Source of the DNA: Pseudomonas sp. GM78
GTDB taxonomy: Bacteria > Pseudomonadota > Gammaproteobacteria > Pseudomonadales > Pseudomonadaceae
Length of the DNA stretch: 64,000 nt
Direction of reading: 5' to 3'
NCBI RefSeq assembly: GCF_000282475.1
Contig: NZ_AKJF01000201.1
Location: 1 to 64,000, forward strand
Positions 5,256 to 34,773 of this stretch are shown piece after piece. The notes beneath the pieces were generated by a model. That model was given only the letters and a program-made list of their open reading frames with translations, was not told the origin of the DNA and ran no database searches. A program made the translations under genes and the position numbers. Each line of letters starts with the position of its first letter. The stretch's first letter is position 1.

Positions 5256-5414
5256 GTTAGGCGATGTGGGGAGGGTGTCAAAAATGTGTCTGTTGCGGGA
5301 TGTGAGATAATCCGGGATCAGGGGACGTCGACGACTTCACCGCCGGGTGTTACCGCCGAGCAATCAACCGGAGACACGTCCGCCCCATTCACAATCTCGA
5401 ATGTGAAAACCAAC

Positions 5415-6812
5415 CTAACGACTGACCTGCTTGGGATTGGACGCATCAGGCTGGATGACATTACTGTCCTCCGCACTCAGCCACGCATTGACACTGGCCA
5501 CGCTACCTTCCGAGAGCTTTCCAGCCCAGCGGTTGAGCGCAAACAAGTTGATGACAAAATCGTACTGAGCCTTGAGCAGATCGCGACGCGCCTTGAATTC
5601 GTTCTGCACACTGGTCAATACATCCACCGCGTTCACCACGCCATAGGTGAACGCCTTCTGTGCGGCAATGCTGGACTGGCTGGCCGAAGACAACGCATTG
5701 CGGCTCGCACGGATCTTCTCGACACTGGATTGAGCCGTCAGGTAGGCATTCGTGGTTTCTTTAACCACTTGGCGCCTTACTCCCTCCAGTTGCTCCTCTG
5801 CTACTTGCTGATCGTCATATAAACCACGAACACGGGCCGAGGTGGAGCCACCGCTGTATATCGGCACTTTCACACCCAGGGTGGCGACGTAGCTGTCGCT
5901 GCGCGGGGTCAGGGTGTTGTCATACCCCACGTCGCTCTGCTGGCCGCTCAGACTGAACGTCAGGGATGGATAATGCCCGCCCTTGCCTTCACGCACCGCC
6001 GCTTCGGCCGCTTCGACGCCGCTCTGGCTCGCCTTCAGGGCCGGATTGCCACTCGCTGCCAGTTGCAACCAGTTATCCAGGCTTTCCATAGGCGCCTGGA
6101 ACTCCACATCACTGCGCACGCGACTCAGGCGCTCATTAATAGGTCGCCCCACCAACTCGGCCAGTGCCGCGCGACTAAGGCGCACCTGGTTGCGCGATTC
6201 GACTTCCTGGGCCGCCAGGCTGTCGACCCGCGCCTGCAGGTCCAGTTGATCGGTGATCTTGGCCATGTGCCGGGCATACAGCGCATTGACCTGGTCGAGA
6301 TTTTTTTGCGTCGCCCGACGCTCGGCCATGACCAGTTCCAGGTCGTCATCGGCCGCCAACGCGACGAAATAGCGCCTGGCCAGATCCACCGTAGCCTCGG
6401 CCTGAGCCTCATCAGCTTCCGAGACCTTTTGCCGGCTGACGCTTTTGGACTTCTGCCAGCTTTCCCAAGCCTGCTTGTTATAGATGTATTGGGTCAGGCT
6501 CAATCCGTAATTGTTGTTGTCATAGATTTCCCGCGAGGCATCGTCCTTGCGCAAGATGCGGTTGTAACCGCCGTTGGCCGAGACCTGCGGGAGCAAACTA
6601 CCCAGCGCGGCGCGCTGCTGTTCGGACGCGGATCGCGCCTTGGCGTAGGCCGAGATAATGCGCGGATCTTCCAACCGCGCCTCGCGATACAGCGCCATCA
6701 GGTCAACCGAATAATCATTGGCACTGACACCACGCTCTCCCTTCGCAGCTGCCGCTTGAGCCTGACAAATCGATAAAACGAGGAGCACAACGGGTAACAA
6801 ACGCACAATCAT
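5415..6812 (-). CDS. TolC-family outer-membrane channel of a type I secretion system
   Basis: A 465-residue protein with a cleavable signal peptide (about residues 1-20, ending QAQA). It has the two-fold repeated helical and strand pattern of TolC/AprF channels, for example a YNRIL repeat-start region near residue 85 and LGVKVPIYSGGSTSARVR near 310. It would form the outer-membrane exit of the exporter encoded just upstream. Its ATG overlaps the stop of the adaptor gene by 4 nt (ATGA), so translation is coupled. Closest in style to AprF/PrtF. Confidence 0.9.
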   Translation of the reverse strand: MIVRLLPVVLLVLSICQAQAAAAKGERGVSANDYSVDLMALYREARLEDPRIISAYAKARSASEQQRAALGSLLPQVSANGGYNRILRKDDASREIYDNNNYGLSLTQYIYNKQAWESWQKSKSVSRQKVSEADEAQAEATVDLARRYFVALAADDDLELVMAERRATQKNLDQVNALYARHMAKITDQLDLQARVDSLAAQEVESRNQVRLSRAALAELVGRPINERLSRVRSDVEFQAPMESLDNWLQLAASGNPALKASQSGVEAAEAAVREGKGGHYPSLTFSLSGQQSDVGYDNTLTPRSDSYVATLGVKVPIYSGGSTSARVRGLYDDQQVAEEQLEGVRRQVVKETTNAYLTAQSSVEKIRASRNALSSASQSSIAAQKAFTYGVVNAVDVLTSVQNEFKARRDLLKAQYDFVINLFALNRWAGKLSEGSVASVNAWLSAEDSNVIQPDASNPKQVSR

Positions 6813-8137
6813 TCCTCGATCATCGACTTGGCAAACATGTTGCGAGCCGGTTTCAGGAGGTACTGCAGCATGGTTCGATCACCCGCATTGATCAGCACGT
6901 CCGCCGGCATACCTGGCAACAACTTGCGATCGCCGAGCTTTTTCGCACCCTCGTCCGTGAGTGTCACCCGCACCAGGTAATAGCTGTCACCCGAACGCTC
7001 ATCGGTCAAGCGGTCCGCAGATATTCGAGTGACCTCGCCCTCGATAACCGGCGTGGTCGCATAATTGAATGCGGTGAAGCGAATGTCCGCCGTCTTGCCC
7101 AACGAGATGCGATCGATATCATTGGTGCCGACGCGCGCTTCAATCACCAACTGTGAGGCTTCAGGCACGATGTCCATCAAGGGTGTGGCCGGGCTGATCA
7201 CACCACCCACGGTATGCACCTTCATATCCAGCACCATGCCACCCTCCGGAGCCCGGATGACTATCCGCGAGAGCCTGTCCTTGAGTGCACTGACTTTTTC
7301 CTGCAGCTCAAAGACCTCGCTTTGCACATCGGCAAGGTTTTTCACCACCTCGGAGTTAAAGTTCTTGGTGAGCTGAACAATCTCCAGCTGCGTTTCGTTA
7401 ATCTGCAAACGGGTGGTCAGGATGTTCGATTTGTGGTCAGCCACTTCCGACCTGAGCATGTCCAGCTTGCGCTCCTGCTCCAACAACCTTTGCTTGTCGA
7501 CGAACCCCTGGGCTAACAGCTCCTTGAGCTCAGCAATCTCACCGCTGTAGGACTGCTCCAGCCCTACTTTGGTACGAACCATCGCTTCCAGTCCGGCGAT
7601 CTGTTGACTGAGCTGAGCAATACGCTCTTTCTTGACCGCTATTTCCCCAAGACGCGAACCACGCCGAGCATTGAAGACATGCGTTTCGCCCTCCAATGCC
7701 TCCTGCGCGCGCTGCGAATCAGGACCATCAATCGACACCATCGGCAACGCCGGCAAGTCATCGCGTTCGGCTCGCAAACGGGCTTCCTTGGTTTTGGCGG
7801 CAATCAGCTGGCTACGGGTAGATTCGTATTCGGAACTGATTTGCGACTCATCCAGCACAATCAGCGGATCGCCCTTGCGCACCAGATCCCCATCATGCAC
7901 GAGCAGCTCCTTGACGATGCCGCCCTCCAGATGCTGAACCGTCTTGCGATAGCTTTGGACTGTAACCTGCCCACTGCCAAATACAGCGTTACCCAGCGGA
8001 GCGAAAGCAGCCCAGCCGCCAAACAGGCCGAAGGTTACAAGCACAATGCCGAGGCCGAGCCGGCGTATATTTCGGTCAGAAGTAGGCACCTCATCCAATT
8101 CGTCATCGTTGAGGGTGATCAGGGTAGTACGGGTCAT
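6809..8137 (-). CDS. HlyD/AprE-type membrane fusion protein of a type I secretion system
   Basis: A 442-residue adaptor. A short cytoplasmic N-terminus precedes one membrane segment (about 27-45, rich in Gly, Leu and Val). A beta-barrel/lipoyl region with VQHLEGGIVKELLVHDGD follows, then a long coiled coil (about 100-290) and the closing lipoyl and barrel half. It links the inner-membrane ABC permease to the TolC-like channel. The frame is open upstream, but the ATG at 8137 is preceded by AAAGGA at 8 nt and matches the family start. It lies 13 nt after the permease gene. Confidence 0.9.
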   Translation of the reverse strand: MTRTTLITLNDDELDEVPTSDRNIRRLGLGIVLVTFGLFGGWAAFAPLGNAVFGSGQVTVQSYRKTVQHLEGGIVKELLVHDGDLVRKGDPLIVLDESQISSEYESTRSQLIAAKTKEARLRAERDDLPALPMVSIDGPDSQRAQEALEGETHVFNARRGSRLGEIAVKKERIAQLSQQIAGLEAMVRTKVGLEQSYSGEIAELKELLAQGFVDKQRLLEQERKLDMLRSEVADHKSNILTTRLQINETQLEIVQLTKNFNSEVVKNLADVQSEVFELQEKVSALKDRLSRIVIRAPEGGMVLDMKVHTVGGVISPATPLMDIVPEASQLVIEARVGTNDIDRISLGKTADIRFTAFNYATTPVIEGEVTRISADRLTDERSGDSYYLVRVTLTDEGAKKLGDRKLLPGMPADVLINAGDRTMLQYLLKPARNMFAKSMIEE

Positions 8138-8150
8138 CGATGGATTCCTT

Positions 8151-9902
8151 TCACGCGCCGGCCGAAGCCGCATCTGAAGCGGCCGCCTGGGCGACCCGCT
8201 GCTGAGTCTTGGCTTGCTGGGCCGCCAGCTCGGCAATAACCTGCTCACGCGCACCATAAAGACTGATGGTGCCGGCATTCAACACCATCACGCGATCGAG
8301 CCGGGCAAGAATATTGGGGCGGTGCGAGACGATGAACACCGTGGCACCGGTTTCCTTGATTTTCTGCAAGGCGACACCCAAGGCACGCTCGCCGACATCA
8401 TCAAGGTTGGAGTTGGGCTCATCCAGGACAATCAATCGCGGATTACCGTAGAGTGCCCGCGCCAGGCCAATACGCTGGCGCTGACCGCCAGACAGGTTGA
8501 CACCGTCGCTGCCGATGACCGTGTCGTAACCGTCGGGGAGCATCAGGATCATTTCATGCACACCCGCGACCTTGGCCGCGTGCACTGTTTTCTCGGCATC
8601 GATCGCTTCAAAACGGGCAATGTTTTCGCTGATGCTGCCCTCGAACAACTCGATGTCCTGCGGCAGGTAACCCACGTGCGGGCCCAGCTCGTGCTTGTCC
8701 CAGGTACTGATATCCGCACCGTCCAGGCGCACCACGCCATGCTGCGGCGCCCATATCCCCATCAGCGCCCGAACCAGTGTCGACTTGCCCGCCGCGCTGG
8801 GCCCGACAATGCCCACCACGGTACCTGCCGGAGCGACGAAGCTGATGTTACGAATAACCGGGGTTTTCGCACCCGGTGGGGTCACGATCAGGTTCTCTAC
8901 TTGAATATGCCCCTGCGGTGCGGGCAGCTTCATGCGCTCAGGTTCGGCACTCAGCTTGTCCAGGGTCTCGTTCAGGCGGTTGTATTGCACCCGCGCACCG
9001 ACAAAGCCCTTCCAGCTGCCGATCATCTGGTCGATAGGGGACAAGGCGCGTCCGAGCAACAGCGAGCCGGCCATCAACAAGCCCGGCGTTATCTCGTGGG
9101 TGATTACCAGGTAAGCACCTAGCGCCAGCATGATGGACTGAGTCCACTGACGGAACGTCTTGGACACGGATGTAATGATGCCGCTCTTGTCGCTGGCATA
9201 CGACTGCAGCCTCAGTACCTTACGCTGGCGCTGTGCCCAGCGGCTCATCAGGGTGCCAAGCATCCCCATTGATTCGATGACTTCGGCATTGCGCAGGGTT
9301 TTGGTGGTGTGCAGGGAGGCTGCAACGTTTTCCTTGTTGGCCTCCGCCAGCGCCTTGCCAGTGAAGCGCTGGTTCAACACAGCCAGACAGATCAGTACGG
9401 CCGCGCAACCCACGGTAACCCACCCATATAAAGGGTGGAACATGAACATGACCGCGGTATAAACCGGCAGCCACGGCGCATCGAAGAAGGCGAACAGGCC
9501 ATTGCCGGTCAGGAATTGGCGCAGGGACGTAAGGTCATTGAGCGACTGGGCCGACGCATCCATACCGCCACTGTCCAGGGCCCTGCGGAAGCTGGCTCGA
9601 TAAACGTCATGACTCAACAGGGCGTCAAGCCGGTTGCTGATACGCACCATGATCCGTGAGCGCACCCACTCCAGTGAACCCAGGGTCAACATCAATACGG
9701 TCAGGATGAGTGTCAGCATCACCAGCGTGGAGACGCTGCTGCTGGGCACTACGCGACCGGAAACCTGGATCATGAAGAACGTCGGAACCAACATCAGCGC
9801 ATTAACGAACAGACTGAAAAAACCGACGGAAATAAAGCTGCTCTTGCAAACCCTCAAGGCGGCTTGCAAGTTGTTTTCGGGTAGGCGACTCATAGCATCC
9901 AT
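8151..9902 (-). CDS. Type I secretion ABC permease/ATPase (AprD/PrtD type)
   Basis: A 583-residue fused transporter. The N-terminal membrane domain has about six helices (residues 20-300). The C-terminal ATPase has Walker A GPSAAGKST (367-375), signature LSGGQRQRIGLARAL (near 480) and Walker B LIVLDEPNSNLDD. There is no N-terminal C39 peptidase domain, so it should export proteins with an uncleaved C-terminal signal, such as RTX proteins. It is the first gene of the permease-adaptor-channel operon. It is divergent from the genes for an unknown protein and the RTX/DUF4214 protein, its likely cargo. ATG codons at 9902 and 9893 are both possible; neither has a strong ribosome binding site. Confidence 0.92.
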   Translation of the reverse strand: MDAMSRLPENNLQAALRVCKSSFISVGFFSLFVNALMLVPTFFMIQVSGRVVPSSSVSTLVMLTLILTVLMLTLGSLEWVRSRIMVRISNRLDALLSHDVYRASFRRALDSGGMDASAQSLNDLTSLRQFLTGNGLFAFFDAPWLPVYTAVMFMFHPLYGWVTVGCAAVLICLAVLNQRFTGKALAEANKENVAASLHTTKTLRNAEVIESMGMLGTLMSRWAQRQRKVLRLQSYASDKSGIITSVSKTFRQWTQSIMLALGAYLVITHEITPGLLMAGSLLLGRALSPIDQMIGSWKGFVGARVQYNRLNETLDKLSAEPERMKLPAPQGHIQVENLIVTPPGAKTPVIRNISFVAPAGTVVGIVGPSAAGKSTLVRALMGIWAPQHGVVRLDGADISTWDKHELGPHVGYLPQDIELFEGSISENIARFEAIDAEKTVHAAKVAGVHEMILMLPDGYDTVIGSDGVNLSGGQRQRIGLARALYGNPRLIVLDEPNSNLDDVGERALGVALQKIKETGATVFIVSHRPNILARLDRVMVLNAGTISLYGAREQVIAELAAQQAKTQQRVAQAAASDAASAGA

Positions 9903-10748
9903 ACTGAGTGGGAAGGCGTAAAGCGCGGCAGTGTACCACCCACCTCCAGCACCGGCAGCCAGAAAAGTGCTTGGTAAAGGAAGTTTAATGATGGAAGCGA
10001 CGAATGACGCCAGCCCAAATTAACGCCCCTTTTTACCTCCCGCACCACCGACACTTCCCTTCAACTAGCTTGAGCAACTGTAACAATCCACCCTCATGCT
10101 GACTGACTGGTCAGGACCGACTTAAAGACAACCGGCAGCAAGTCCACTTTCTTTAGGGTGCACAAAAAATATTTTTTAGCAAAGCAAGTACCGAGTCGAC
10201 CGCTGGTAAAGACAATTGGTTTTTTTGCCTCTACCATAGCCGCCAATTTGCATGCTCCGCCGAACAGCCAGAGAACACTAGGCAGACTCAAAAGCACAAC
10301 AAGCATGGCCAACCCAAACGTCTGACCTGCTTTGCACCGACACCCCAAAAACATAAACACACCGTTTGCCGATCAACATTTTCCCGGCCTGCTTTTCTCT
10401 GCCGCGCAAGATCTTGCCCAGACAAACCACCAGGTCCAGGTTGCGAAGGTGCATAGCAAAAATTTTAGACAGGCCCCGGGCCGGGCGGGCGTTTGCGCCG
10501 ACCAGCGAGGGGACGGACGCCGTGATTTCACGGGGTCCAGGCGAGGTTTTTGGCCAACCTCCCTTGCAATGCAAAAATTGTTTCGACACAGGATTGTTAA
10601 AAAAATCCAGATAGCTTAATCTTCCTGCCGTCAAGGAAGCCACCAATCCGCCATTAGCCTTTTAACTATATAGGCTACATGCGCTCATCAGATATTTGTT
10701 GAGCCTTGTATGGATTATCCAGTTCAAGGATTGAAGGAGTTTTACCGC
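9903..10748. other. Long divergent intergenic region between the secretion operon and its likely cargo genes
   Basis: I see no convincing gene in this stretch of about 850 nt. Short open frames lack codon bias or ribosome binding sites. It must hold the promoters of both divergent units. An AT-rich segment near 10,660-10,675 (TTAACTATATAGG) is a weak -10-like candidate for the rightward genes. AT-rich patches near 10,145-10,185 and 10,440-10,475 could be regulator sites. An untranslated leader or small RNA cannot be excluded. Confidence 0.4.
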
Positions 10749-11633
10749 GTGTCTTCGCAAAGCACTGATGGACTTAAGATCACTTCCCGGGTCACTCTTC
10801 TTGAGCCAGGGATGTATATCTTTCGTTATGCGTCACAAACCAGTACAGACAAAACTGTTTGCATAGCGCTTCAACAAGCGCCCCTTGGCAAAGGTCTTAT
10901 TGACTTTTTCCCCGCCGAGGGTGTTAGCAAAAACATGCTGACCAAACTGGGTGACTGCATCATCGGTCGCGTCAAAAACGGCGTAACTACCGTACTGATC
11001 ACCGAATACCACTTGGCCAATGTCCAAGTCGATCCTGTTGATCTGCGTATCGACCGAATCGACACTTCGGCCGCCATCATGCGCAACTTCGTGCCACCCG
11101 CCCCCGCCAAAGAAACCAGCAGCGAGTTACCATCTGCGGTTGCGCCGGGGACTTTAAAATTGATCGGCCATATTCAATCCCGCGGTGATGTCACTGCCAC
11201 CCAAGAGTGGCTTGGTGAGCGCCAGGGCACGACCAACATTGAAGGCTTCCTGGTTGACTGGGCAGACCGTCCCGATGGCGTTGACCTGGTGTACACCAGT
11301 ACCGTCGCCGGCTCAGGCCCCAGCCCCAAAGTTCTTTCCGGTCACTATTGCGGCACGCGCGGCAAGGCCACGCCCCTGATCGCTGTCGGCTTCAGCCTGA
11401 CCGGCCCCCACAGCAGTCGTTATCGACTGGTTGGCGAGGTCGCCTTCGCAGGCGCCGATCCGCAACCCATTGTTGCTGACCAGATGTTTTTCGGCCCCAG
11501 CGGCCAAGAACCCCTGGTTGGAATCAAGCTTTCCATCTTCGCCCATCCTGAGATCAACGCTCCCCGCTATAAGTCTCCCTGGGAAAACCTTGCGACTACG
11601 CAAACATATAGCCATGAGGGCCAATTGGCCTGA
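10749..11633 (+). CDS. Unknown protein next to the RTX/DUF4214 gene
   Basis: About 294 residues, not recognised. It has no signal peptide or membrane segment. The middle and C-terminal part (about 150-270) is rich in beta-strand patterns and includes EGFLVDWADRPDGVDL and a YRLVGEVAFAG segment, loosely like the beta-sandwich modules of the large glycosyltransferases downstream. I prefer the GTG at 10749 because GAAGGAG lies 9 nt before it; an ATG at 10710 is in frame but has no binding site. The gap to the RTX/DUF4214 gene is 17 nt, so the two are probably co-transcribed. Roles to consider are a second secreted component, a chaperone or a carbohydrate-binding partner. Confidence 0.7.
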   Translation: MSSQSTDGLKITSRVTLLEPGMYIFRYASQTSTDKTVCIALQQAPLGKGLIDFFPAEGVSKNMLTKLGDCIIGRVKNGVTTVLITEYHLANVQVDPVDLRIDRIDTSAAIMRNFVPPAPAKETSSELPSAVAPGTLKLIGHIQSRGDVTATQEWLGERQGTTNIEGFLVDWADRPDGVDLVYTSTVAGSGPSPKVLSGHYCGTRGKATPLIAVGFSLTGPHSSRYRLVGEVAFAGADPQPIVADQMFFGPSGQEPLVGIKLSIFAHPEINAPRYKSPWENLATTQTYSHEGQLA

Positions 11634-11650
11634 TCTACAGGAATTGAAGC

Positions 11651-13024
11651 ATGCAATACGATAACCCGTTCTTGGCCAGCGACGTCAAAGACGCCCTGAC
11701 CCAAAACGCTAGCATCTCCAGCACCACCGCTAACGCTATCTCGCAAATCCTCAATCTGGATAACGCAGAGACCGTCGCAATCGGTTCGTGGGATGGCAAG
11801 GGCAGCGTCGTTGCACCGACCGGTTCGACCACTCAGGCTATCTTCGCTGGCATCGCTGGCGCTGCCGGTACTGATGTCACTGTGGACCTGACCACTGCGG
11901 GCCTGTCCGACACCAAGGCATTTGTCTTCGCCAGCGACGCCAACCTGGCTCTGGACTTCACCGCGGCGTCTGTCGACACCACCGATCGCGTAATCGTCAG
12001 CGGCAACGGTAACGACCACATCACCGTCGGCAACGGCAACACTACTGTCGACACCGGTACCGGCAACGATACCGTGATCCTGGGCAACGGCAACAACGTA
12101 GTTATCGCCAACAGCGGCGACAACCAGATCTCGACTGGCACTGGCCGCGACACTATCTACACCGGTACTGGCAACGACACCGTCGATGCTGGCGCAGGCT
12201 ATGACGTGGCTCATGTTGCAGGCTCGCGTGCTGATTTCATCGCATCCGTATCGGGCGGTTCGCTGAACCTGAACGGCGGTGATCACGCCATCAACACTTC
12301 GAGTGTCGAATTCATCAGCTTCGACAACAACGAGTCGATCGTTGTTGCCAGCACCGATGAAGAAGCAGCTGCTCTGCGCCTCTACAATGGCCTGCTGGGC
12401 CGTGACGCTGACGCAAATGGCGCCGAGGCTTGGAGCAATGCCGCTTCCGGCACTGCACTGACTGACATCGCGCAAGGCTTCCTGAACTCCAGCGAGTTCC
12501 AGAACAACATGAACAGCGAGTTCATTCAAAGCGTGTACTCCACTCTGCTGGGCCGCGATGCGGACGCTGGCGGCGAGGCGGCCTGGCTGAACCTGCTGGC
12601 AAATGGTACAAGCCGTGCCGACGTCATTGCTGGCCTCAGCAACTCTGATGAAGGCAAGGCTGCAAGCGCAAGTGCCAGCGACACCGATTATGTCAAGGCG
12701 CTGTACACCAGCGTACTGGGTCGTGAAGCTGACGATGCAGGTCTGGAGAACTGGGTTGCCGCACTGTCTGCCGGTGCTGACCGTGCCTCGGTCGCACAAA
12801 GCATCAGCAGCTCGAACGAGTCCAACGCCAAGTCCACATCTGATTTCATCGATCAGCTCTACAGCAACGCGCTGGGTCGCGATGCAGACGCGGAAGGCAA
12901 GGCTGCCTGGACCAACGCTCTGGAGCACGGCGCTACCCAGGCTGAAGTGGCCATCGGTATCGTCGGTTCCGACGAAGGTATCGACAGCAACGGCAACGTG
13001 GTTGTAGTACACGGCGTGGCGTAA
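11651..13024 (+). CDS. Secreted-type surface protein with RTX-like and DUF4214 repeats
   Basis: A 457-residue acidic protein with very few Lys or Arg and no N-terminal signal peptide. Residues 118-190 carry eight RTX-like nonapeptides such as GNGNDHITV and GTGNDTVDA, which bind calcium in this family. Residues 239-443 hold four DUF4214 repeats, each with a LYxxLLGRDADAxG motif. The C-terminus ends in a hydrophobic strand (VVVVHGVA) like an uncleaved type I secretion signal. It lies beside a type I exporter and is its likely cargo. AGGA is 8 nt before the ATG, and codon choice is strongly biased to preferred codons (CTG, AAC, GGC, ACC), which suggests high expression. A surface layer or adhesin role is inferred. 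Confidence 0.88.
   Translation: MQYDNPFLASDVKDALTQNASISSTTANAISQILNLDNAETVAIGSWDGKGSVVAPTGSTTQAIFAGIAGAAGTDVTVDLTTAGLSDTKAFVFASDANLALDFTAASVDTTDRVIVSGNGNDHITVGNGNTTVDTGTGNDTVILGNGNNVVIANSGDNQISTGTGRDTIYTGTGNDTVDAGAGYDVAHVAGSRADFIASVSGGSLNLNGGDHAINTSSVEFISFDNNESIVVASTDEEAAALRLYNGLLGRDADANGAEAWSNAASGTALTDIAQGFLNSSEFQNNMNSEFIQSVYSTLLGRDADAGGEAAWLNLLANGTSRADVIAGLSNSDEGKAASASASDTDYVKALYTSVLGREADDAGLENWVAALSAGADRASVAQSISSSNESNAKSTSDFIDQLYSNALGRDADAEGKAAWTNALEHGATQAEVAIGIVGSDEGIDSNGNVVVVHGVA
12002..12220 (+). repeat. RTX-like nonapeptide repeat region
   Basis: Eight consecutive 27-nt units encode G-x-G-N-D-type nonapeptides (residues about 118-190 of the surface protein). The first units fit the pattern well. 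Units five and eight are degenerate. Confidence 0.8.
12365..12979 (+). repeat. Four tandem DUF4214 repeats
   Basis: Units begin near residues 240, 291, 347 and 399. Each has an aromatic/leucine helix, a GRDADAxG or GREADDAG loop, a conserved Trp, and a helix ending in a serine-rich S-x-E or S-D-E motif. The DNA copies are well diverged, so this is a domain-level repeat rather than a recent duplication. Confidence 0.85.
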
Positions 13025-13053
13025 CACCCCACCCAGCAACAAGCCTGAATATT

Positions 13054-13107
13054 CCCAGCCGCAAGGCTGGGGGTATTTGAAAAGGGGCTCCTTCTTGGGG
13101 CCCTCTT
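13054..13107 (+). terminator. Rho-independent terminator after the RTX/DUF4214 gene
   Basis: A small hairpin (13054-13071, CCCAGCC GCAA GGCTGGG) is followed by a second GC-rich hairpin (about 13082-13102) and a long T-run (TTTTTTGTTTTT). It separates the surface-protein transcript from the glycosyltransferase genes. Confidence 0.85.
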
Positions 13108-13137
13108 TTTTGTTTTTACAGCGAAACCCAGATAATC

Positions 13138-15663
13138 ATGTCAAGACATATAGACCATAAGCCGGGATCGCTTATGGACCACTTCCATCGCGACCGCCAA
13201 GCCGGTCTCCATGACAGTGCCGAGGCTCACCTCGAACGTGCCTTGCATACCCCCGAATATCGTTCCGAGGCCCTGATCTGGAAAGGGATCGAGGCCTTGC
13301 AACATAAAGACCCGCAGCGTGCCTTCGTCTACCTCAGTGGTGCAGCCCATCAGCTGCCTCAGCGTACCGACGTTCGAGCACTGCTCGCACGCAGCCTTCT
13401 GGCGCAAAAAAACGCCAAGGCGGCGACCCGGTTGCTCAGCGCCGCGTGGCGCGACCAACCCCAAGACCCAACGTTGCGCATGGCACTCTGGCAAGCGCGT
13501 AGCCAGTCCGAACAGCCGGCAATACTTTGCCAGTTGATCCTGGCCCACTTGCCCGAAATCAACGACAGCAACGAACTGAAACTTGTGCTTGGCCTGCTGA
13601 GCGCGCTACCCAACGCCCCCAAAAACGTGGGCGTGGTGCGCTACGATGCCCAGAGCGGGGCAATCCAAGGCTGGGCACTGAACCTGCGCGCACCGCAAAC
13701 GCCCCTGCGCCTGCAACTGCAGGTCAACGGACGCACGACACAGTTCCCGGCCGACTCAACTCACCCTTTGCTGCAGCAGGCGGGGCTCAGTGCGACCCAT
13801 GGTGGCATTCAGGTTCAAGTCTCGCAGCCGACCCCGGAACTGCAAATCCGCTTCAAGGATGGCGCCGCCCTTTTGGGCAGTCCGCTGTCGGTACTCTCCC
13901 CCTTCGTTCCGCCAATGCCAGTGGCAGGAAATGTTGCCCGGCAACAACCCGTCGATGTGCTGGTCCCCGTCTACGAAGGCCTTGCCGAAACCCTGGAGTG
14001 CATCGACAGCGTGCTGCGCAACCGCAGCCTCAACCAAACCGAACATCGGCTGGTGGTGCTGGACGATGCCAGCCCGAACCGGGCACTGAGCCAAGCCCTC
14101 AAGAAGCTGGCCGCCAGCGGCCAGATTCACTACGTGCGCCAACCGACCAACCTGGGCTTTATTCGCAACACCAACCGCGGCATGGCCCTGAGCCCGGAAC
14201 GAGACGTGGTCTGGTTGAACGCCGACACCCGCGTCAACGGAAACTGGCTGGATCGCCTCCACGCAGTGGCATACGAAGCCGACGACATCGCCTCGGTCAC
14301 CCCCTTTACCAATAACGGCGAGCTGATGAGCTTCCCGCTCAGCCGCGTCAGCCAGGCCATGCCCAGCGCCGAGCAACAGGCTCAACTGGACCACTTGGCC
14401 AGCCAGACCGACAGCGCCGCCGTCGAGATCGAAACAGGCTGCGGCTTCTGCCTCTATATAAAGCGCAGCGCCCTGGATGAAGTCGGCTACCTGGATGAGG
14501 TTCACCTGTCGCGCGGCTACGGCGAGGAAACCGACTGGTGCCTGCGCGCCCGCAACTTAGGCTGGCGGCATATGGGCGCCCCTCGGGTATTCGTCGCGCA
14601 CCAGGGCGGCATCTCTTTTGGCGATGAGAAGATCCTGCGCGTTGCCCATAACAACGCCATTCTAAGGCGGCGATACCCCGATGCCGAATCGCGCTACACC
14701 GCCTTTTGCCTGCGCGATCCATTGCAGCCAGCGCGCCAGGCGCTGCAGCGAGCCCGGTTGGCGCAGTTGCGCAGCTGGATGACCAGCGAGAACGGGCTCG
14801 ATGGAACACAAGACCTTTTTATCGAGAGCGACCTCCCCTCGACCGCGCCCCTGGCTTTGAAATACCTCAATCGCGGCCAAGATACCGAGGTAACTCTGCT
14901 TGCAGCGCTGCCCGGCCTGCCCCTGTCACTGGAATACCGGTTGCCAAATGACGCATCGCAACTGCTGGCCGATCTGCAATCACTGCCACTCCAGCAACTG
15001 ACCTATCAGCAACTCGACGGCTGCCCCGTAGAACTGAGTGATTTGCCGGCCCAGCTGCAACGGTCTTACCGGATCAACTGCCGCGACGACCGCTTGCTTG
15101 CAGAGCAGGGTGACTTGTACTGGCGGGGCTTCGCCAATCAGGCGCAGAGCGTTCAAATGGTTTGGCAAGCACTGCATGCCCGCTATAACGCCGCGTTTCC
15201 CCAAGCAAAAGTACCGAGTTTTGCCCCCCCCGCCCCCCAGCCTATGAAAACCTGCGCCCTAGTCGGCACGCTCTTGATCGCCGATCGGCTGAACAACGCC
15301 GATGTGGCGCAGCGTTGGCTCAAGCTTGGCCAACGCATCAAGCGCGAGCAACACCCGTACCTGTTATTGGTGGTCGGCGAAAGTCCCTGGCTGAGCACAC
15401 TGCTGTCGACCGGTGCGGTACAGGCATTGGCTCAACTTCCGGGCCTGAACATTACCGAAACCCTTGCCTTGGCAGGGTGCACCGCAGCCCTCAGCCTCGA
15501 CCCAGCCCCTGGATCTGATTGGGCGGCAGCAGACCTGGCTGACGAACATGGCTTGGCCCTGTACGCCGAGTCTGGCGATGTCGCTCGTGAAGCCGGTGCC
15601 TTGCCAGTGGCTCAACTGTCCATTTTCTCGACCCCAGCCCCCGCGCCAGTGGATGCCCTATGA
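13138..15663 (+). CDS. Large family 2 glycosyltransferase with TPR-like N-terminus
   Basis: An 841-residue soluble protein. Residues about 15-160 are helical TPR-like repeats. Residues about 170-255 form a beta-sandwich-like module (GAIQGWALNLRAPQTPLRLQ, ending LLGSPLSVL). Residues about 268-530 are a GT2 catalytic domain: VDVLVPVYEGLAETLECIDS, DDASPN, a DxD-like NADTRV and an ETDWCLRARNLG acceptor-site motif. The C-terminal 300 residues are unassigned. The acceptor is unknown. It starts 30 nt after the terminator of the surface-protein gene and overlaps the next gene by 4 nt. The ATG at 13138 has no clear ribosome binding site; the ATG at 13174 is an alternative. Confidence 0.82.
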   Translation: MSRHIDHKPGSLMDHFHRDRQAGLHDSAEAHLERALHTPEYRSEALIWKGIEALQHKDPQRAFVYLSGAAHQLPQRTDVRALLARSLLAQKNAKAATRLLSAAWRDQPQDPTLRMALWQARSQSEQPAILCQLILAHLPEINDSNELKLVLGLLSALPNAPKNVGVVRYDAQSGAIQGWALNLRAPQTPLRLQLQVNGRTTQFPADSTHPLLQQAGLSATHGGIQVQVSQPTPELQIRFKDGAALLGSPLSVLSPFVPPMPVAGNVARQQPVDVLVPVYEGLAETLECIDSVLRNRSLNQTEHRLVVLDDASPNRALSQALKKLAASGQIHYVRQPTNLGFIRNTNRGMALSPERDVVWLNADTRVNGNWLDRLHAVAYEADDIASVTPFTNNGELMSFPLSRVSQAMPSAEQQAQLDHLASQTDSAAVEIETGCGFCLYIKRSALDEVGYLDEVHLSRGYGEETDWCLRARNLGWRHMGAPRVFVAHQGGISFGDEKILRVAHNNAILRRRYPDAESRYTAFCLRDPLQPARQALQRARLAQLRSWMTSENGLDGTQDLFIESDLPSTAPLALKYLNRGQDTEVTLLAALPGLPLSLEYRLPNDASQLLADLQSLPLQQLTYQQLDGCPVELSDLPAQLQRSYRINCRDDRLLAEQGDLYWRGFANQAQSVQMVWQALHARYNAAFPQAKVPSFAPPAPQPMKTCALVGTLLIADRLNNADVAQRWLKLGQRIKREQHPYLLLVVGESPWLSTLLSTGAVQALAQLPGLNITETLALAGCTAALSLDPAPGSDWAAADLADEHGLALYAESGDVAREAGALPVAQLSIFSTPAPAPVDAL

Positions 15664-18173
15664 ATAGCATGACCCTTACTCCACGCTCCGAATACCAAGG
15701 CGAGATCACCGGGCTGTACGGCGACGTGCTACAGGGTTGGGCCCTGGACACGGCCCAACCTGATGCGCGCCTGGTGATCGAGGTACTGGTAGACGGCGCA
15801 GGCGTGGCCCTGGCCCGAGCCGATCAGTTCCAACCCAACGCAACCACGGGAGATCAGTTCCACGGCTTTGCCGTACAACTGAAGGACGCCTGGTTGAACA
15901 ACGCGAGCCGGATCAGCATAAAGGTCGCCAACCAGGCCGACCTGCTCCCAGGCTGCCTGCAACTGCCCGGCCAACCCGCCAACGAGCCAGCCGCCATCGC
16001 TTCCCAGGTCTGGTACAACGGTGGATTGCGCCTCAGCGGCTGGAGTTGGGATCCGCAAGTACCCCATCGGCACATGCAGATCATTGTGCGCGAAGAAGGC
16101 CAGGTCCAAGCCCGCGTGACCTGCGACCAGCGCCATCTGGCCTTGGCCAATCGCAGCAGCGCTGACCATGGTTTCACTGTCGAGCTGCCCTGGTTGCTGG
16201 CCGACGGTGAGCCCCATGTCCTGCACATCGAAAACGACCTGGGCCAGGCACTCTCCGGCAGCCCGGTCACGCTGTGCTGCTGGCCCCAGGGCCTGGAAGG
16301 ACTTTTGCACGATCATGCAAAGTCGCCCAATCCCGACACCTTGAAACTGATCACTCAGTTGGCCGGTGAACAAAACCGCTGGGCACCCAAAAGTGCCGGC
16401 TTCCACCATTACGCACAGTGGTTCGAATGCTTTCAGCAGGCCGAGCCGATGCCGGCCCAGTTGCCACCGGGCGAAGTCGGAGTGTTGCTGATCAGTACCG
16501 GCAACCCGCCTGATGATGCCGTCACCCTGGCCAGTATCCACCAGCAACGCATGGCCGTCGGTGAAGTCGCCGAAGGCCGCATCGAGAACATCCTGCCGGC
16601 GCTGCTCAAGCTGCTGAGCACTGGCTGCAACACCATTGTCCCGGTCCAGGGTGGCGATCACTTGCCCAGCCACGCAATCGATCATTTGCATGGGGCCTTG
16701 AGTGGCGGCAATGCCTGGGCTTTTGCCGATTGTGATCGCGACGGCCCTTCAAGGGAGCGCAGCCTACCCTGGCTGAAACCGGTGTGGGATGTGGATCTGT
16801 TTATCGGCGCAGACCTGTTCAGCCCCGGTGCGGCTTTCAGTGCAGACATAATCCAGCAAGCACTGGTGTTACTCACTCCCGAACATGGCCTGCAGGTACT
16901 GGATTGGCATCACTTTCTTGCAGCAGTTGCCCTGGCCAGCGAGCGGCGCAAGGCAAGGGTGGTGCACCTGCCAAAGGTGCTTTACCACCGTCATTATCAT
17001 TCACCGGCAAGTCCCGCCGACGCACCAGCCTCGCCGGATCGCCGCGAAGCGATGGAATGGCTGAGCCAAGGACTGGCGCGCGGTGCCCGTGTTCAATCAT
17101 TACCGAACTACCCCGGCCTATTGCGCACCCATTGGCCACTGCCGCAGACACTGCCAAAAGTCAGCCTGATCGTACCTACACGCGATCAGGTCGGGCTCTT
17201 GCGCACCTGCATAGAAGGCCTGCTGAGTAACACCGATTACCCTGACCTCGAAATCATCGTGGTGGACAACCAGTCCAGCGACCCGGCCGCGCTCGAGTAC
17301 CTCGCCAAATTACCGGCGCTTGGTGTGAAGGTATTGGCCCATCCCTATCCGTTCAACTACTCCACTATCAATAACCGCGCAGTGGAACTGGCCAGCGGCG
17401 AACTGATTGGCCTAGTCAACAACGACATCGAGATCATCGAGCCTGGTTGGTTGAAAGAAATGGTTAGCCAGGCGATTCGCCCAGGCGTCGGCGCCGTCGG
17501 AGCAAAACTCCTATGGCCCAATGGCATGGTGCAGCACGGTGGAGTTGTAGTGGGTATCAACGGCTTGGCTGCGCACACCGGTAATAACCTCCATCAGGGC
17601 GATCCAGGTTACCTGGGCATGAACCAACTGGCTCGGCAACAAAGCGCAGTCACCGCCGCCTGCCTCCTGCTCCACAAAACACTGTACCAGGCACTGGGAG
17701 GACTGGACGAACGCGCCTTCCCCGTGGCCTTCAACGACGTCGACTTGTGCCTGAAAATCCAGCTAAGCGGGTTGCACCTGATATGGACGCCCTTCGCACA
17801 ACTCATTCATGCCGAGTCTGCCAGTCGAGGTAAAGATCACACCACCGAGAAAAAATCACGAGCCATGCGTGAACAACAACTGTTTATCGAGCGCTGGTCT
17901 CAATCAGGGCAGCAGGATGTTTACTACCACCCCGCCCTCTCGGCTGAATATTTGAGTGGTCCTTACGGAGGGTTGGCGATGCCTCCTAGGCCTGTCAAAG
18001 CTCGCTCCCGCCAGCACGTGCAAACCGATGCCCGAATAGGAAACTCACTATCAGCATCAGAATTATTTCAAATTGAGACCAAAACTACGCCTGCAATATC
18101 TTTCGCTCCTAAAAACGTAGATTCGGCTCCAATCAAACATGTTCAACCTATTTCCATCGGCGTACAAATATGA
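15660..18173 (+). CDS. Large family 2 glycosyltransferase with two beta-sandwich modules
   Basis: An 837-residue protein whose start overlaps the previous stop (ATGA). Two copies of the GW module occupy about residues 15-110 (GDVLQGWALDTAQPDARL) and 115-225 (LRLSGWSWDP, ending LSGSPVTL). A central region of about 270 residues is unassigned. A GT2 domain follows at about 498-760: KVSLIVPTRDQVGLLRTCIE, VDNQSSD, a DxD-like NNDIEI and FNDVDLCLKIQLSG. It looks like a rhamnosyl- or similar transferase of the WsaF/RfbF style, but the donor is not known. The last 50 or so codons are much more AT-rich than the rest, marking the edge of the AT-rich island. Confidence 0.83.
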   Translation: MNSMTLTPRSEYQGEITGLYGDVLQGWALDTAQPDARLVIEVLVDGAGVALARADQFQPNATTGDQFHGFAVQLKDAWLNNASRISIKVANQADLLPGCLQLPGQPANEPAAIASQVWYNGGLRLSGWSWDPQVPHRHMQIIVREEGQVQARVTCDQRHLALANRSSADHGFTVELPWLLADGEPHVLHIENDLGQALSGSPVTLCCWPQGLEGLLHDHAKSPNPDTLKLITQLAGEQNRWAPKSAGFHHYAQWFECFQQAEPMPAQLPPGEVGVLLISTGNPPDDAVTLASIHQQRMAVGEVAEGRIENILPALLKLLSTGCNTIVPVQGGDHLPSHAIDHLHGALSGGNAWAFADCDRDGPSRERSLPWLKPVWDVDLFIGADLFSPGAAFSADIIQQALVLLTPEHGLQVLDWHHFLAAVALASERRKARVVHLPKVLYHRHYHSPASPADAPASPDRREAMEWLSQGLARGARVQSLPNYPGLLRTHWPLPQTLPKVSLIVPTRDQVGLLRTCIEGLLSNTDYPDLEIIVVDNQSSDPAALEYLAKLPALGVKVLAHPYPFNYSTINNRAVELASGELIGLVNNDIEIIEPGWLKEMVSQAIRPGVGAVGAKLLWPNGMVQHGGVVVGINGLAAHTGNNLHQGDPGYLGMNQLARQQSAVTAACLLLHKTLYQALGGLDERAFPVAFNDVDLCLKIQLSGLHLIWTPFAQLIHAESASRGKDHTTEKKSRAMREQQLFIERWSQSGQQDVYYHPALSAEYLSGPYGGLAMPPRPVKARSRQHVQTDARIGNSLSASELFQIETKTTPAISFAPKNVDSAPIKHVQPISIGVQI

Positions 18174-20203
18174 AAAGCCTATGTATTACCGGTAGTATTC
18201 AAAGCACTCTTGATCAATTTGCTGCCGCCCTGATAGCGGCAGGGTCGACAGTTGCAGTACCTGCCTTGAGGAATGAAAAAATATCCATTGCCCAATGGCA
18301 TGAAAAAGCACTGGCAACACAAACCGGCTCTCCATCGGCACCAGTGCAACTTGGTCGTACATGGGATCAACTAGCTGTAGATATTTTTTACGCAAACCAT
18401 AACCAACCAGTATGGTTGTGGGCAGAAGAAAAAAGCCACCGATTTCTTCAATACTGGTCGGAATTCGATAAAAACACTCACTTCGTATTGATGCATACCT
18501 CACCTCAAGCGGCATTAATTGCGGCTTTAAATGAAGGTAAGGACAATTTACTAGCGCTAGAAGCAGCCTTAGAAAACTGGTGCCAGTTAACTCAAGCAAT
18601 GTTGAGCTTTCATATTTCGCAGCCCGCTCGCAGCGTATTTGTTGACAGCGTCGCAGCCACAAAAGATCCAGCCCTGCATATAAAGGCCTTGGATAAAAAA
18701 TGGCTTCTTTCATTTCAAGACTCACTACCAAAACGTACTCAGCAAACAGATGAGCAGCATCTGGATCTCTATCTGATCAACAATCTTGTTCAACGTCACA
18801 AATATGCCATGGAGCTGCACAATGAAGTCCAGGCACGCCAACTCGTCCAAACAACGCAAATCAAGACTCCAATTTTTGACCAAGTAATTGCTGATCATAT
18901 AAAAACAAAACGCGAGAACTTTAAAGTACATACCGCTAATACCCAGCTAGAAGCGCGACTGCAAATTAAGCAAAAAGAGTTGCAGATCGCCCTCACCGAG
19001 CAAAAAAAAAATCTATCCAAGCTAAATGACCTCAGCCCTCAAATAAAGCAATTAGAAACTCAATCAGAGAAGCGATATCAAGACCTGATAAAAGAGCATA
19101 GCTCTGAGACCAGCAAAAACCAAAAACTCCTTGCATCAGCGGTCTTGGAAAATGAGTTACTACTCGGTCAACTCCACCATACCCAAGAAACACTTGCTTT
19201 AAACATTACTGAAAAAAACGCGCTTGAAAAAACAACCGAAGCACTACAGAGCCGCATTAAGCGAATCTTGGAAGACAACCCAGGTTATTGGGAACTAGAA
19301 ACACTGAAAGTCGAACAGGTAGCAAGTAAAGAAAAAAATAAAGAGAAGACGCTTCAGTGGAACATAAGCAATGTCTATCTAGGCGAGAAAAAGGTACCTG
19401 AGCTTGCGTTTCAAACACGCACCTCAAATGGTGTCACCGAAATTTTGCTTCAACGCCCAATGGGAAGTGTAGAGGCTTGGCCACTGGCACTCCTTGAGCA
19501 CGAAGAACTATTATGTGCGCCCAATCAAGGTTCCGCATACCAGGGAAACAATGAAACTATTAGCAAGCTTGGCAGCAGCGACTGGTCCGGACTACTTATT
19601 CTTGTAAAAAAATTAATCAGTTATTTACAAAACACCAAAACACTTGTACTTCCTGTGGACTTTGACAAGAATGCTCTAGTGATTGGTCTGTACAACCTAG
19701 AAAAAACATTAGCAAACTGGCCAAAGATTCTGCGCTACGACGACCTACAACTAAGCGAAAGCGCTCAAAATGATGAGTATCGATACATTGGCATAAGATT
19801 TAACAATTTGAGCCTAGGGCAATTTACGACTTCAGAATTCAACTACAAAATTGCCACAGTAGATGAGTCAACAGCGACATTCGGTCAGCATCCAAGAATA
19901 GAGTTCCCGGAATCAAGCCAACACGCGTTCAAAAATTGGTTTATAGAAAGCGACGATGAAAGAGGTGCTCGCCTAGAGTTAAGGTTCTCGCAACCCACTG
20001 CTATGGATACTAACATCTGGAACCAACTGCCCGAACAGGACCAAATTCTCGTTGCCAGCCTGATAAGCAACTTACCAATTCAGCTCAAACGCCTACAACA
20101 TAAAAATCCGAATGTAAAAATCGCTTGGAAAAAATGGCACACACTATCGAGCGACGTTAAAACCATACTATCCAAGAACACATCCACAGCAAGAGCCAAA
20201 TAA
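18170..20203 (+). CDS. Unknown protein with central coiled coil, in the glycosyltransferase operon
   Basis: A 677-residue AT-rich gene whose start overlaps the previous stop by 4 nt (ATGA). The N-terminal 200 residues look like a nucleotide- or sulfotransferase-type alpha/beta fold (MKSLCITGSIQSTLDQFAAA), but no P-loop is intact. Residues about 255-375 are a charged, glutamine-rich coiled coil. The C-terminal 280 residues are an unrecognised globular region. There is no signal peptide or membrane segment. Its place between two glycosyltransferase genes suggests a scaffold or regulatory role in glycan assembly. That is inference; I do not recognise the family. Confidence 0.7.
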   Translation: MKSLCITGSIQSTLDQFAAALIAAGSTVAVPALRNEKISIAQWHEKALATQTGSPSAPVQLGRTWDQLAVDIFYANHNQPVWLWAEEKSHRFLQYWSEFDKNTHFVLMHTSPQAALIAALNEGKDNLLALEAALENWCQLTQAMLSFHISQPARSVFVDSVAATKDPALHIKALDKKWLLSFQDSLPKRTQQTDEQHLDLYLINNLVQRHKYAMELHNEVQARQLVQTTQIKTPIFDQVIADHIKTKRENFKVHTANTQLEARLQIKQKELQIALTEQKKNLSKLNDLSPQIKQLETQSEKRYQDLIKEHSSETSKNQKLLASAVLENELLLGQLHHTQETLALNITEKNALEKTTEALQSRIKRILEDNPGYWELETLKVEQVASKEKNKEKTLQWNISNVYLGEKKVPELAFQTRTSNGVTEILLQRPMGSVEAWPLALLEHEELLCAPNQGSAYQGNNETISKLGSSDWSGLLILVKKLISYLQNTKTLVLPVDFDKNALVIGLYNLEKTLANWPKILRYDDLQLSESAQNDEYRYIGIRFNNLSLGQFTTSEFNYKIATVDESTATFGQHPRIEFPESSQHAFKNWFIESDDERGARLELRFSQPTAMDTNIWNQLPEQDQILVASLISNLPIQLKRLQHKNPNVKIAWKKWHTLSSDVKTILSKNTSTARAK

Positions 20204-20272
20204 AATCCACAATCATCATTTCATAACAAAAACGAAAAATTAACTTTGGCTTTATGCACCCGAGCAAAGAAT

Positions 20273-23200
20273 ATGAAAACCCAAACCAAAAACACTCACA
20301 GCGCTTTTTCTAGAGCGAACATGGCTTTAAGGCAGCAAAATTACAGTGAAGCACTGGAGCTGTACAATGTCGCACGCCTAGAAAACGGCGAACTTCATGA
20401 GCTGATTGATTTTAACGTAAAAATAATTTCAAATCGTATCTCAACACTCCCGACGACAAATAAAAGCGTACATAATTACGCTCTAGTCATCCATGCATTC
20501 CATCTGGACACACTTCCGGATCTAGAAATCTATTCGAAAAACTTCCCACAAGACGCTGATCAATATGTAACGTTTCCCGAGGATTTTGGCAACGAAAAAA
20601 TAGATATCATTAAAAAGACCTTCCCTAAAGCGCACCTTATCCCGGTTCCCAATATTGGCCAGGATATTGGCGCTCTATTTAACTTAATGGAGAAGCACAA
20701 CCTATCGCAATACAGCTTCATATGCAAAATACATACAAAAAAAGGCAACAAAAAACCTGATCAGTGGCGACAAACTTTATTGAAGGGAGTTTTGGGCAGC
20801 AAACAACAAGTCCAAAACACTATCAATTTATTTCAGAGCAACCATCATGTAAAACTCGCGGGAGCGAAGCAGCTTTACATTTATGGCCCATCTAATTTAT
20901 GGAAGAACTCCCAAAATATTGAATCAATATTTGGAGAGCTCGTAGGTGATTTTAACTTCAACAAAAATGATTGGGGTTTTTTTGCTGGTACCTGCTTCTG
21001 GATCTCTACTGACATCCTAGGTGACATTTATAAGCAGATGCAAAAAATCGAAATGAAGCCGGCAACTTATACTGATGACGGTACTCCGGCGCATGCAGTC
21101 GAGAGAATGTTCGGTCTATTACCAACAATCATGGGCGCTAAAGTAGTTCTAAATGACGTCGTAAAAATCAACGACTACACAGTAGAGTCAAAGACTTTTC
21201 CGAACGACTTAGCAAAAAATCAAATATCAATAGTAGCTTTACTAGAAAATTTGACACCCGCCGCTGCTCCCAAAACCGCAACCATCATTGAGGCACAATC
21301 TACACTAAAGAGCATTCCTCAACTGGCCAAACTGAAAATTCGAGGTTCTTTGGAATGCGTTGTTGATCGTGCTGAGATTCACGGCTGGGTTGCTGCCATC
21401 GGAGATCAAGCTCCCAGGACAGCTATATTACGCTTCGGTAGCGATACGGATACTGGTACGGATATCACCGTAGAGGCAAGCACATTTAGAGCTGATCTGA
21501 AAGCCCATAATATAAATGAAGGCAAGCATGCATTTTCTGTGACTGTTCCTCATGCTTTCATGAACGGTAAAAAACATAAGATTTTTCTAATTGACGCTCA
21601 AACAAAGACCATTATTTCGGAAAAAACAAGCTCGTGGAAACAACCGAAACGAAGCTATGTCGATTTTTCGGGCTTTTTAAAATCGTCAATGACTCAGCCT
21701 ATGGTCAACGCGCCTTTCACTGAAGAGGATAAGCGCAGTTTCGCCATGATGGAAAACATTGCTAATAGATTACATCACAAAGCTACAGAGTCTAAAAACA
21801 AGCCGCTTGTAAGCGTAATAATGCCAACTTACAATCGTGAAAAAATAATTAGTCTAGCAATTCAATCTGTACTTTCTCAATACTACACAAACTTTGAGCT
21901 TATCATTATTGATGACTGTAGTACTGACGACAGCATTCAAATCATAGAACAATTCAATGACAGCCGAATTCGCCTTTTACGTCAAACTACTAATCAAGGT
22001 CACTCTGCGTCGAGAAATAAGGGATTAGAAGCGGCACAAGGTAAAATCGTAACATATCTTGACTCCGACAACTTATGGGATAGCCGCTATATAGGCGCAA
22101 CAGTAGGCGCCTTTATGAGTCTGCCCAATGCCAACTCTATTTATTCCGGGCAACTTCTGTACCGCGGAGAGTCATCAACCCCATTTGCCGCCAGGTACGG
22201 TCACTTCAACCGCTCCCTTCTAGAAAATAATAATTATATTGACTTGAACGCGTTCGCCCATCGCCGAGAGCTTCTTAGTAAAATAAAGGGTTTTGACGAA
22301 ACCTTAAAAAGATTCGTCGATTACGACTTAATCCTGAAAGCATCTGAACAAGGCACCATGTTTTCTGTACCAGTACTACTTAGTCAGTATTATTATGACA
22401 AGGCGGAAAATACAGTAACTAATGATTCGCGACACTTAGTCAACATGGGCGTTGTTCGCAATCGCATGTCGGAAAGACTAGCAATTAAGCAATTAAAAAC
22501 CGCCCAACAAAAACTTAAACGGCGCGTTACAATTGTAATACCAAATTGGGAGTCACTGGAAGATATTCAGGAATGTATAGACTCTATCCACGCCTTTGAA
22601 TGGTATGGAATGCTGAGTACGATAGTGATTGACAATGCATCAAGCATCGAAGTAAAAGAATATCTGCGTTCAGAGGCAGAAAAATCTAGAATTACCCTAA
22701 TAGAAAATACTAAGAACTTTGGCTTTACCTATGCCGTCAACCAAGGTATTGAGTCCGCTCAGAAGGACGCCGATATTCTACTACTTAATAATGACGCGAT
22801 GATTCATGGCGGAGCAATACAAGCCCTGCAAAACGCTTGCTACAAGTTGAAAGATGCAGGAATGACTGTACCAAGACAAATACTTCCAAAAAACACAAAA
22901 ACACTTCGTACCCACGTCCCCTATGCAAACGAAATGAATGACTGCGATGTAAACATTTCAGCCCACCATCAAAATATCGCAGAAGTTTCTCTTTTCCATG
23001 ATGGAAGTCCTCTTGACCTTTCATATGCTGCATTCTTTGCCGTGTACATTCGGCGTGATGTTATTAATGATATAGGACCATTAGATGCTGAGTATGGGCG
23101 ACACTACCGTTCAGACCGCACATATTGTGACCTCATGAGAAACACATTGAAACGAAAACTCTATTATGTACCAGAGGCGTTTGTTACTCATAAACTTCAA

Positions 23201-23335: not shown

Positions 23336-23382
23336 GACAGAATCAAATCTCATTAATACATATACCTGCACCAGGCTAACCG

Positions 23383-23430
23383 AAGGCTCTAATTCAACTA
23401 GATATCGTACTATCAGATAATTAGAGCCTT
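23383..23430 (+). terminator. Terminator-like inverted repeat after the RgpF/GT2 gene
   Basis: AAGGCTCTAATT (23383-23394) and its exact complement (23419-23430) flank a 24-nt loop and are followed by TT. It lies 48 nt after the stop of the three-domain transferase gene. The long loop and short T-run make it a moderate terminator candidate. Confidence 0.55.
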
Positions 23431-23448
23431 TTACAGCATGAGAATAAG

Positions 23449-24261: not shown

Positions 24262-24289
24262 TTAATATGCTTTTATCGAGAGAGTTATC

Positions 24290-25621: not shown

Positions 25622-25651
25622 GTGATTGTAACTACAAAAGCGAGAAGCGTC

Positions 25652-26818: not shown

Positions 26819-27072
26819 ATGAAACTACTCAATCATGCTGTTTTTTTGATCACGCCGAAATCTAAACAGCTTGACGCGCACAATTACACCGTCACTATAG
26901 TTTTATATGGTGACAGAATTTTGCTTTCGGAGCGTCCCTAATAGCTATTTAACGATAACCATACGAATTCAAGCCGACGTAAATGACGCGCTACACGGAA
27001 CTTTTACAAATCGTGCTCAAGCTGTAATAATACGCAACCAGTTAGAACTTCAAACGCCAAGAGATATTACGG
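26819..27072. other. AT-rich intergenic region before rmlB
   Basis: No gene is supported here. The sequence is AT-rich up to about 27,060 and then becomes GC-rich at the start of rmlB. It should hold the rml promoter. No RfaH ops (JUMPstart) motif was found. Confidence 0.4.
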
Positions 27073-29072: not shown

Positions 29073-29080
29073 GAGGCAAC

Positions 29081-30507: not shown

Positions 30508-30540
30508 AGGTTTGAGCTGAAGTAATAGCAATTGCTGCAC

Positions 30541-30571
30541 AAGCCCCACCGGAAAATCTCAGGTGGGGCTT
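30541..30571 (+). terminator. Terminator of the rml operon
   Basis: A perfect 10-bp stem, AAGCCCCACC (30541-30550) with GGTGGGGCTT (30562-30571), has an 11-nt loop and a short T-rich tail. It lies between rmlC and wbpM, which converge, and may serve both strands. Confidence 0.8.
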
Positions 30572-30620
30572 TCAATGTTTGGCATTAAAAGCGTGATGCT
30601 CTAAACACCATGCGAAACAA

Positions 30621-34719: not shown

Positions 34720-34773
34720 GAGTGGCCCTTGGAATACAAAAAAAACAATGCCCGGGCACTGTGCCGCAATCTT

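Follow-up and report, generated by a model that had tools for sequence, protein, structure and literature searches.

The stretch of DNA analysed here (the window, 64,000 nucleotides from Pseudomonas sp. GM78) carries a type I exporter and an RTX protein close to genes for O-polysaccharide synthesis, which raises the question of what is exported, whether it coats the cell, and what would hold it there. A precedent is RsaA of Caulobacter crescentus, described in excerpts of two reports as an RTX S-layer protein that leaves by a type I exporter and is held on the O-polysaccharide, its N-terminal domain binding the O-antigen (PMC6978808, PMC3034196). The initial annotation had proposed a similar S-layer-like coat, anchored by an N-acetylperosamine O-antigen. 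No published account of this locus was recognised in the openly available full-text literature, which is weak evidence, as most subscription papers fall outside that scope. Our analysis indicates that the products of the island described below probably make up a sugar-decorated coat protein, whose likely anchoring part resembles that of a known surface layer.

The exporter is encoded on the minus strand by genes for a TolC-type outer membrane channel (5415..6812), an HlyD-type periplasmic adaptor (6809..8278) and a PrtD-type type I ABC permease/ATPase (8151..9902). All three subunits exceed the curated cut-offs (TIGR01844, 244.1 bits against 225.15; TIGR01843, 382 against 208.65; TIGR01842, 741.5 against 510.15), which assigns the system to the PrtD/AprD-type and bears out the AprD/E/F-type exporter, divergent from its cargo, of the initial annotation. 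On the plus strand, divergently from the exporter, lie an open reading frame for a 307-residue protein (up307) and the gene for the cargo; no convincing conserved promoter or ops element was found in the gap between exporter and up307.

The cargo (11651..13024, plus strand) is an acidic protein of 457 residues (46 kDa, pI 4.05), which we characterized by Pfam searches, an alignment of 15 sequences, and its pI, cysteine content and codon use. Residues 1-117 have no assigned domain. They are followed by an RTX part (residues 118-189; HemolysinCabind, PF00353, 39.3 bits, cut-off 23), in which eight consecutive RTX-like nonapeptides can be counted by eye and five are marked by a strict pattern, then by four stretches of DUF4214 (PF13946, 178.7 bits, cut-off 23.2) at about residues 236-448 (12356..12997, plus strand), and by a conserved C-terminus. 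The initial annotation had described an acidic protein with eight RTX-like nonapeptides and four DUF4214 repeats, lacking a signal peptide and showing strong codon bias; indeed, it has no hydrophobic N-terminus, and its effective codon number of 33.8 is the lowest among the 35 window genes computed. In its orthologues this number is 28.8 to 37.5 in 13 out of 14 and 44.3 in the remaining one, and codon bias of this kind hints that the cargo is probably abundant. All 15 sequences are cysteine-free, start with M-Q-Y-D (one of them from a TTG codon) and share the C-terminal motif N-V-(V/I)-V-x-x-G; the last ten residues, with a mean conservation of 87%, form a putative C-terminal secretion signal. 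Directly 3' of the stop codon (13025..13120, plus strand), two tandem hairpins and a T-run are predicted, a terminator-like arrangement present in 15/15 loci. No DUF4214 was detected elsewhere in the window's genome at E 0.001.

To follow the cargo through the genus, 348 congeneric genomes were searched at E 1e-10. Matches were obtained in 23, and 15 of these, the window's own included, encode the full-length protein: the match itself spans the protein in 12, while in G117, G192 and G215 it begins at residue 85 or 97, with the remainder encoded in the reading frame. The remaining eight genomes hold partial RTX or DUF4214 matches only. At the same E-value up307 occurs in exactly those 15 genomes, and so does, at 730 bits or more, the TPR-glycosyltransferase (TPR-GT) encoded after the cargo, for which four further genomes have a partial match (31-41%). 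Moreover, the order tolC-hlyD-abc / up307-cargo-TPR-GT-GT837, GT837 being a second glycosyltransferase, is intact in the 14/14 relatives, where the TolC gene (68-72% identity) and the HlyD gene (64-74%) always adjoin the cassette; this conserved order rules out the reading of exporter and cargo as chance neighbours. As the ABC protein is 79-83% identical by local matches, up307 56-64% and the cargo 43-50%, the latter two over full alignments, it is the exported part that varies most. Some 14-17 kb downstream of the cargo, two of the relatives (G043 and G249; L057 and L059) encode a second, 784-residue protein that matches its RTX/DUF4214 stretch at about 29%. Separately, in G066, G115, G149, G155 and G335 (L017-L021, L025-L028) at least two small RTX-matching open reading frames of about 290-370 residues are clustered, and full-length cargo is absent.

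We then considered how the cargo compares with RsaA. The last two DUF4214 repeats were modelled as a pair, whose fold is similar to that of phycobilisome linkers and, to a lesser degree, to that of the N-terminal domain of RsaA. In the structure comparison RsaA ranked below most phycobilisome linkers, all Z-scores were below 8, and helical folds often give middling Z; in addition, RsaA was not among the best 50 of 124 Foldseek matches (best E-value 0.029), nor among the matches of three sequence profiles (A1, A5, A7) up to E 10, searched without an RsaA positive control. A structural likeness to RsaA may be present, seen as a fold match at modest rank and with no match by sequence profile. Anchoring of the RsaA type is weakened by the low Z-scores, the mostly higher rank of the linkers and the Foldseek outcome. 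By sequence profile and fold together, the paired repeats belong with the phycobilisome linkers (PF00427) and resemble the RsaA anchor domain. Phycobilisome linkers join phycobiliproteins inside cells. Both RsaA and the cargo are RTX proteins with a type I exporter, the cargo pair aligns with the O-antigen-binding domain, and the cargo genes sit among O-polysaccharide genes. The two systems differ in that the cargo has 457 residues against 1026 in RsaA, carries the DUF4214-like part towards the C-terminus instead of at the N-terminus, is too short to include a counterpart of the RsaA lattice domain (250-1026), and belongs to a cassette that includes glycosyltransferases and up307, with D-rhamnose, not perosamine, as the co-occurring sugar.

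This last difference emerged from the polysaccharide genes. One cluster (40065..48331, plus strand) comprises wzm, wzt, an FkbM methyltransferase gene, perB, per and three glycosyltransferase genes, and would serve an N-acetylperosamine O-polysaccharide. The earlier identification of gmd (37922-38953, minus strand), perB (43216-43845, plus) and per (43856-44956, plus) was correct: among solved structures, perB has its best relative in perosamine N-acetyltransferase (4ea7, 2.2e-61) and per in perosamine synthetase (3bn1, 5.2e-148). The distance between cargo and per is about 31 kb. The co-occurrence survey gave a different picture. At E 1e-60, per was matched in 46 of the 348 genomes, many of these matches having only 35-46% identity, so that they need not be perosamine synthases; they include one of the 15 cargo genomes, the window's own, versus 45 of the 333 without full-length cargo (Fisher p 0.70), and none of the 14 cargo-bearing relatives. 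Close matches (at least 83%) came from five genomes (G000, G150, G053, G347 and, in two pieces, G034), one of them with cargo (p 0.20, at low power). A perosamine link was consequently rejected as a general rule. Although its genes are real and the fold match to RsaA would suit it, the perosamine-anchored, S-layer-like coat of the initial annotation is very unlikely, given the distribution of per and the missing counterpart, by length, of the lattice domain.

Perosamine is 4-amino-4-deoxy-D-rhamnose, so that a domain made for perosamine could nearly fit D-rhamnose. A second cluster (30621..38953, minus strand), assigned by Pfam families, holds genes that we take to be wbpM, wbpL, rmd and gmd, with an epimerase and two GT4-type enzymes, and points to a GDP-D-rhamnose route. 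When 80 genomes were searched for rmd (the 15 with cargo, G264 and a further 64 taken in numerical order), it was present in 13/15 cargo genomes versus 4/65 without cargo (p 7e-10, uncorrected for kinship). In the relatives, wbpM and wbpL adjoin the cassette in 10/14, and rmd is found with gmd in 9/14 (the G142 contig ends there). This co-occurrence and the RsaA fold match favour anchoring on a D-rhamnose polysaccharide; the uncorrected kinship, the lack of rmd in cargo genomes G142 and G117, and the four genomes with rmd and no cargo weaken the link. The same evidence bears on whether the cargo is held on the cell at all. It could be a free matrix or adhesive protein, exported and possibly glycosylated, in keeping with the modest RsaA likeness and with the RTX proteins so far reported from pseudomonads, among them, in an excerpt of one report, the biofilm adhesins LapA and MapA (PMC7716237). 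However, the position of the cassette among polysaccharide genes and the rmd association make such a free protein unlikely.

What accompanies the cargo was addressed next; up307, the glycosyltransferases just after the cargo and the limits of the island had been overlooked in the initial annotation. The partner protein up307 (10749..11633, plus strand) has an open frame from 10710, its conserved part starting at the GTG at 10749. It matches no Pfam family at 0.01 and no NCBIfam family at 0.001; of 15 members compared with Pfam, one meets one family, at E 0.28. A single-sequence structure model was discarded (pLDDT 32), and hhalign returned no match of up307 to either glycosyltransferase, nor of the cargo to the TPR-GT. 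A profile search of 398 genomes of the phylum (E 1e-4) matched seven. Six of these belong to two other families (L077-L082), so that the up307 family is wider than the genus. Near these six distant relatives there is a TPR-GT homologue in five (G684, G386, G636, G702, G613), exporter-like ABC and HlyD genes in three of one genus (G386, G636, G702), and an RTX protein directly adjoining up307 in two (G638, G613). No wzm was detected near them by tblastn at 1e-4; ABC permease-ATPase pairs of undefined kind occur in G386, G636, G702 and G638, so glycan export is possible there.

Downstream of the cargo, an 841-residue protein (13138..15663, plus strand) combines TPR repeats (TPR_19, residues 53-116, 7.2e-9) with a family 2 glycosyltransferase domain (Glycos_transf_2, 274-449, 6.5e-17), has no predicted membrane segment, and is a candidate protein glycosyltransferase. 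As a soluble protein with both kinds of domain it is comparable to FlmG, whose TPR repeats, according to the part of the report available, guide cytoplasmic protein O-glycosylation of Caulobacter flagellin (PMC7591256). FlmG likewise modifies an exported protein in the cytoplasm, and differs in its GT-B-type domain and flagellin acceptor, the acceptor of the family 2 enzyme being only inferred. GT837 (15660..18173, plus strand; 837 residues, Glycos_transf_2 at 502-625) is conserved in 14/14 relatives at 49-64% identity.

It is followed by a strain-variable block (18170..26818, plus strand) encoding an unassigned protein of 677 residues, an RgpF/GT2 protein (1029), another unassigned protein (270), an AlgX-like protein (443) and a UDP-sugar dehydrogenase (398). 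Its GC content is 0.41 against 0.53 for the window, and its called reading frames have at most one predicted membrane segment each; a six-frame membrane scan covered the blocks of the 14 relatives. In the latter, the block measures 4 to 13 kb (GC 0.42-0.48, that of the whole fetched stretch being 0.53-0.60), with ends set by hand in G043, G249 and G117, where no rml genes are nearby. Of the 62 reading frames of at least 150 residues called in these 14 blocks, 17 have a counterpart at 50% identity or more in one of the other loci. Six-frame reading frames of that size have two predicted membrane segments at most, compared with 8, 5 and 7 in the controls wbpL, wzm and g49836. Among the first 25 of the 52 Pfam families in these frames are glycosyltransferases, RgpF, CDP-glycerol transferases (8/62), TPR, AlgX-like proteins and sugar dehydrogenases; frames were called greedily by length and antisense frames were sometimes taken, so these gene counts are approximate. 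The island ends with rmlBDAC for dTDP-L-rhamnose synthesis (27073..30507, plus strand; rmlB, rmlD and rmlA by Pfam, rmlC by dTDP_sugar_isom, 251.9 bits), and rml genes follow the block within the fetched stretch in 11/14 relatives. Judged from its sequence, the block looks like an O-antigen-type swap zone joined to a protein exporter.

Comparison with a genome of the same species, G264, delimited the island. By blastn, window 2554-5328 matches G264 at 97%, and 4921-5328 and 30610-32570 (wbpM, 82%) match adjoining bases there, comEA and wbpM being adjacent. The 25 kb from exporter to rml (5329..30609) are therefore missing from the corresponding place, and near-identical sequence resumes at window 59947. 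The G264 genome has no match to cargo or up307 (E 1e-10) or to the TPR-GT (E 1e-50).

Altogether, we tentatively favour, at slightly less than even chances, a horizontally shuffled island with an exporter, one RTX/DUF4214 substrate, its up307 partner and cytoplasmic glycosyltransferases, giving a glycosylated coat held on O-polysaccharide. Glycosylation of the cargo is proposed because the glycosyltransferases follow the protein cassette and not the polysaccharide genes, because TPR-GT, exporter-like or RTX genes lie near the distant up307 relatives, and because of the precedents of FlmG and of SwmA from Synechococcus WH8102, an RTX S-layer or outer-layer protein which, in an excerpt of the report, appears glycosylated (PMC3034196); SwmA differs from the cargo in being cyanobacterial and of 130 kDa. 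The glycoprotein explanation is favoured by the shared 15 genomes and kept order of cargo, up307 and TPR-GT, as well as by the few membrane segments and glycosyltransferase-rich content of the block, and is weakened by the terminator-like hairpins between cargo and glycosyltransferases.

The block could instead build a lipid-carried O-polysaccharide that a linked Wzm/Wzt pair exports, with DUF4214 binding an unglycosylated, RsaA-like cargo to it. All 14/14 relatives have a Wzt_C gene with an adjacent ABC2_membrane gene, 20-38 kb from the cargo in 13 of them and 111 kb in G181, so that the block glycan might be built on a lipid and exported by this route; on these grounds we abandoned an earlier notion that there was no exporter for the glycan. 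The wbpL and wbpM genes adjoining the cassette, the RsaA fold match and the D-rhamnose co-occurrence would also suit such a coat. Nevertheless, in the relatives examined wzm/wzt have their own glycosyltransferase alongside in 11/11 (G192, G215 and G117 among them) and are convergent to the cassette in 10/11 (the exception being G181), and in other families relatives of up307 and of the TPR-GT are found alongside T1SS-like or RTX genes, the tblastn search detecting no wzm there. An unglycosylated coat is thus possible, if on the doubtful side. In the window, a remnant of a Wzt C-terminal domain (55427-55745, minus strand; two frames, below cut-off) lies between g56144 and g54054, whose homologues flank wzm/wzt in relatives, and the only ABC2_membrane match found on the contig is the perosamine-linked 40158-40763.

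In the favoured glycosylated coat, the TPR-GT would bind the cargo in the cytoplasm and start a glycan, which the other enzymes would extend into a strain-specific decoration. The cargo would then exit through the exporter by way of a C-terminal signal that stays uncleaved, calcium would fold its RTX part outside, and the paired DUF4214 repeats may hold it on a D-rhamnose-family O-polysaccharide, forming a coat or adhesive layer that need not be crystalline. The combination in full, a serotype-like glycoprotein coat with RsaA-anchor-like repeats, strain-variable glycosylation in the cytoplasm before export and D-rhamnose-type docking, with the undescribed up307 family as its marker across proteobacteria, is doubtful. 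If true, a type I exporter would handle a substrate already carrying sugars, and a swap-prone gene block would vary these sugars as in O-antigen serotypes, with a bearing on phage and host recognition in environmental pseudomonads. Moreover, the resemblance among DUF4214, phycobilisome linkers and the RsaA anchor would then suggest a testable role for DUF4214 in linking surface proteins with one another or with polysaccharide.

Viral contigs contained no up307 relatives, and their matches to the cargo fell in the RTX part, one extending to residue 336. Finally, a scan of genome contigs yielded 12 distant loci; at L032, from a Lachnospiraceae genome, two open frames contain four DUF4214 repeats apiece, with a spacing close to that seen in the cargo.
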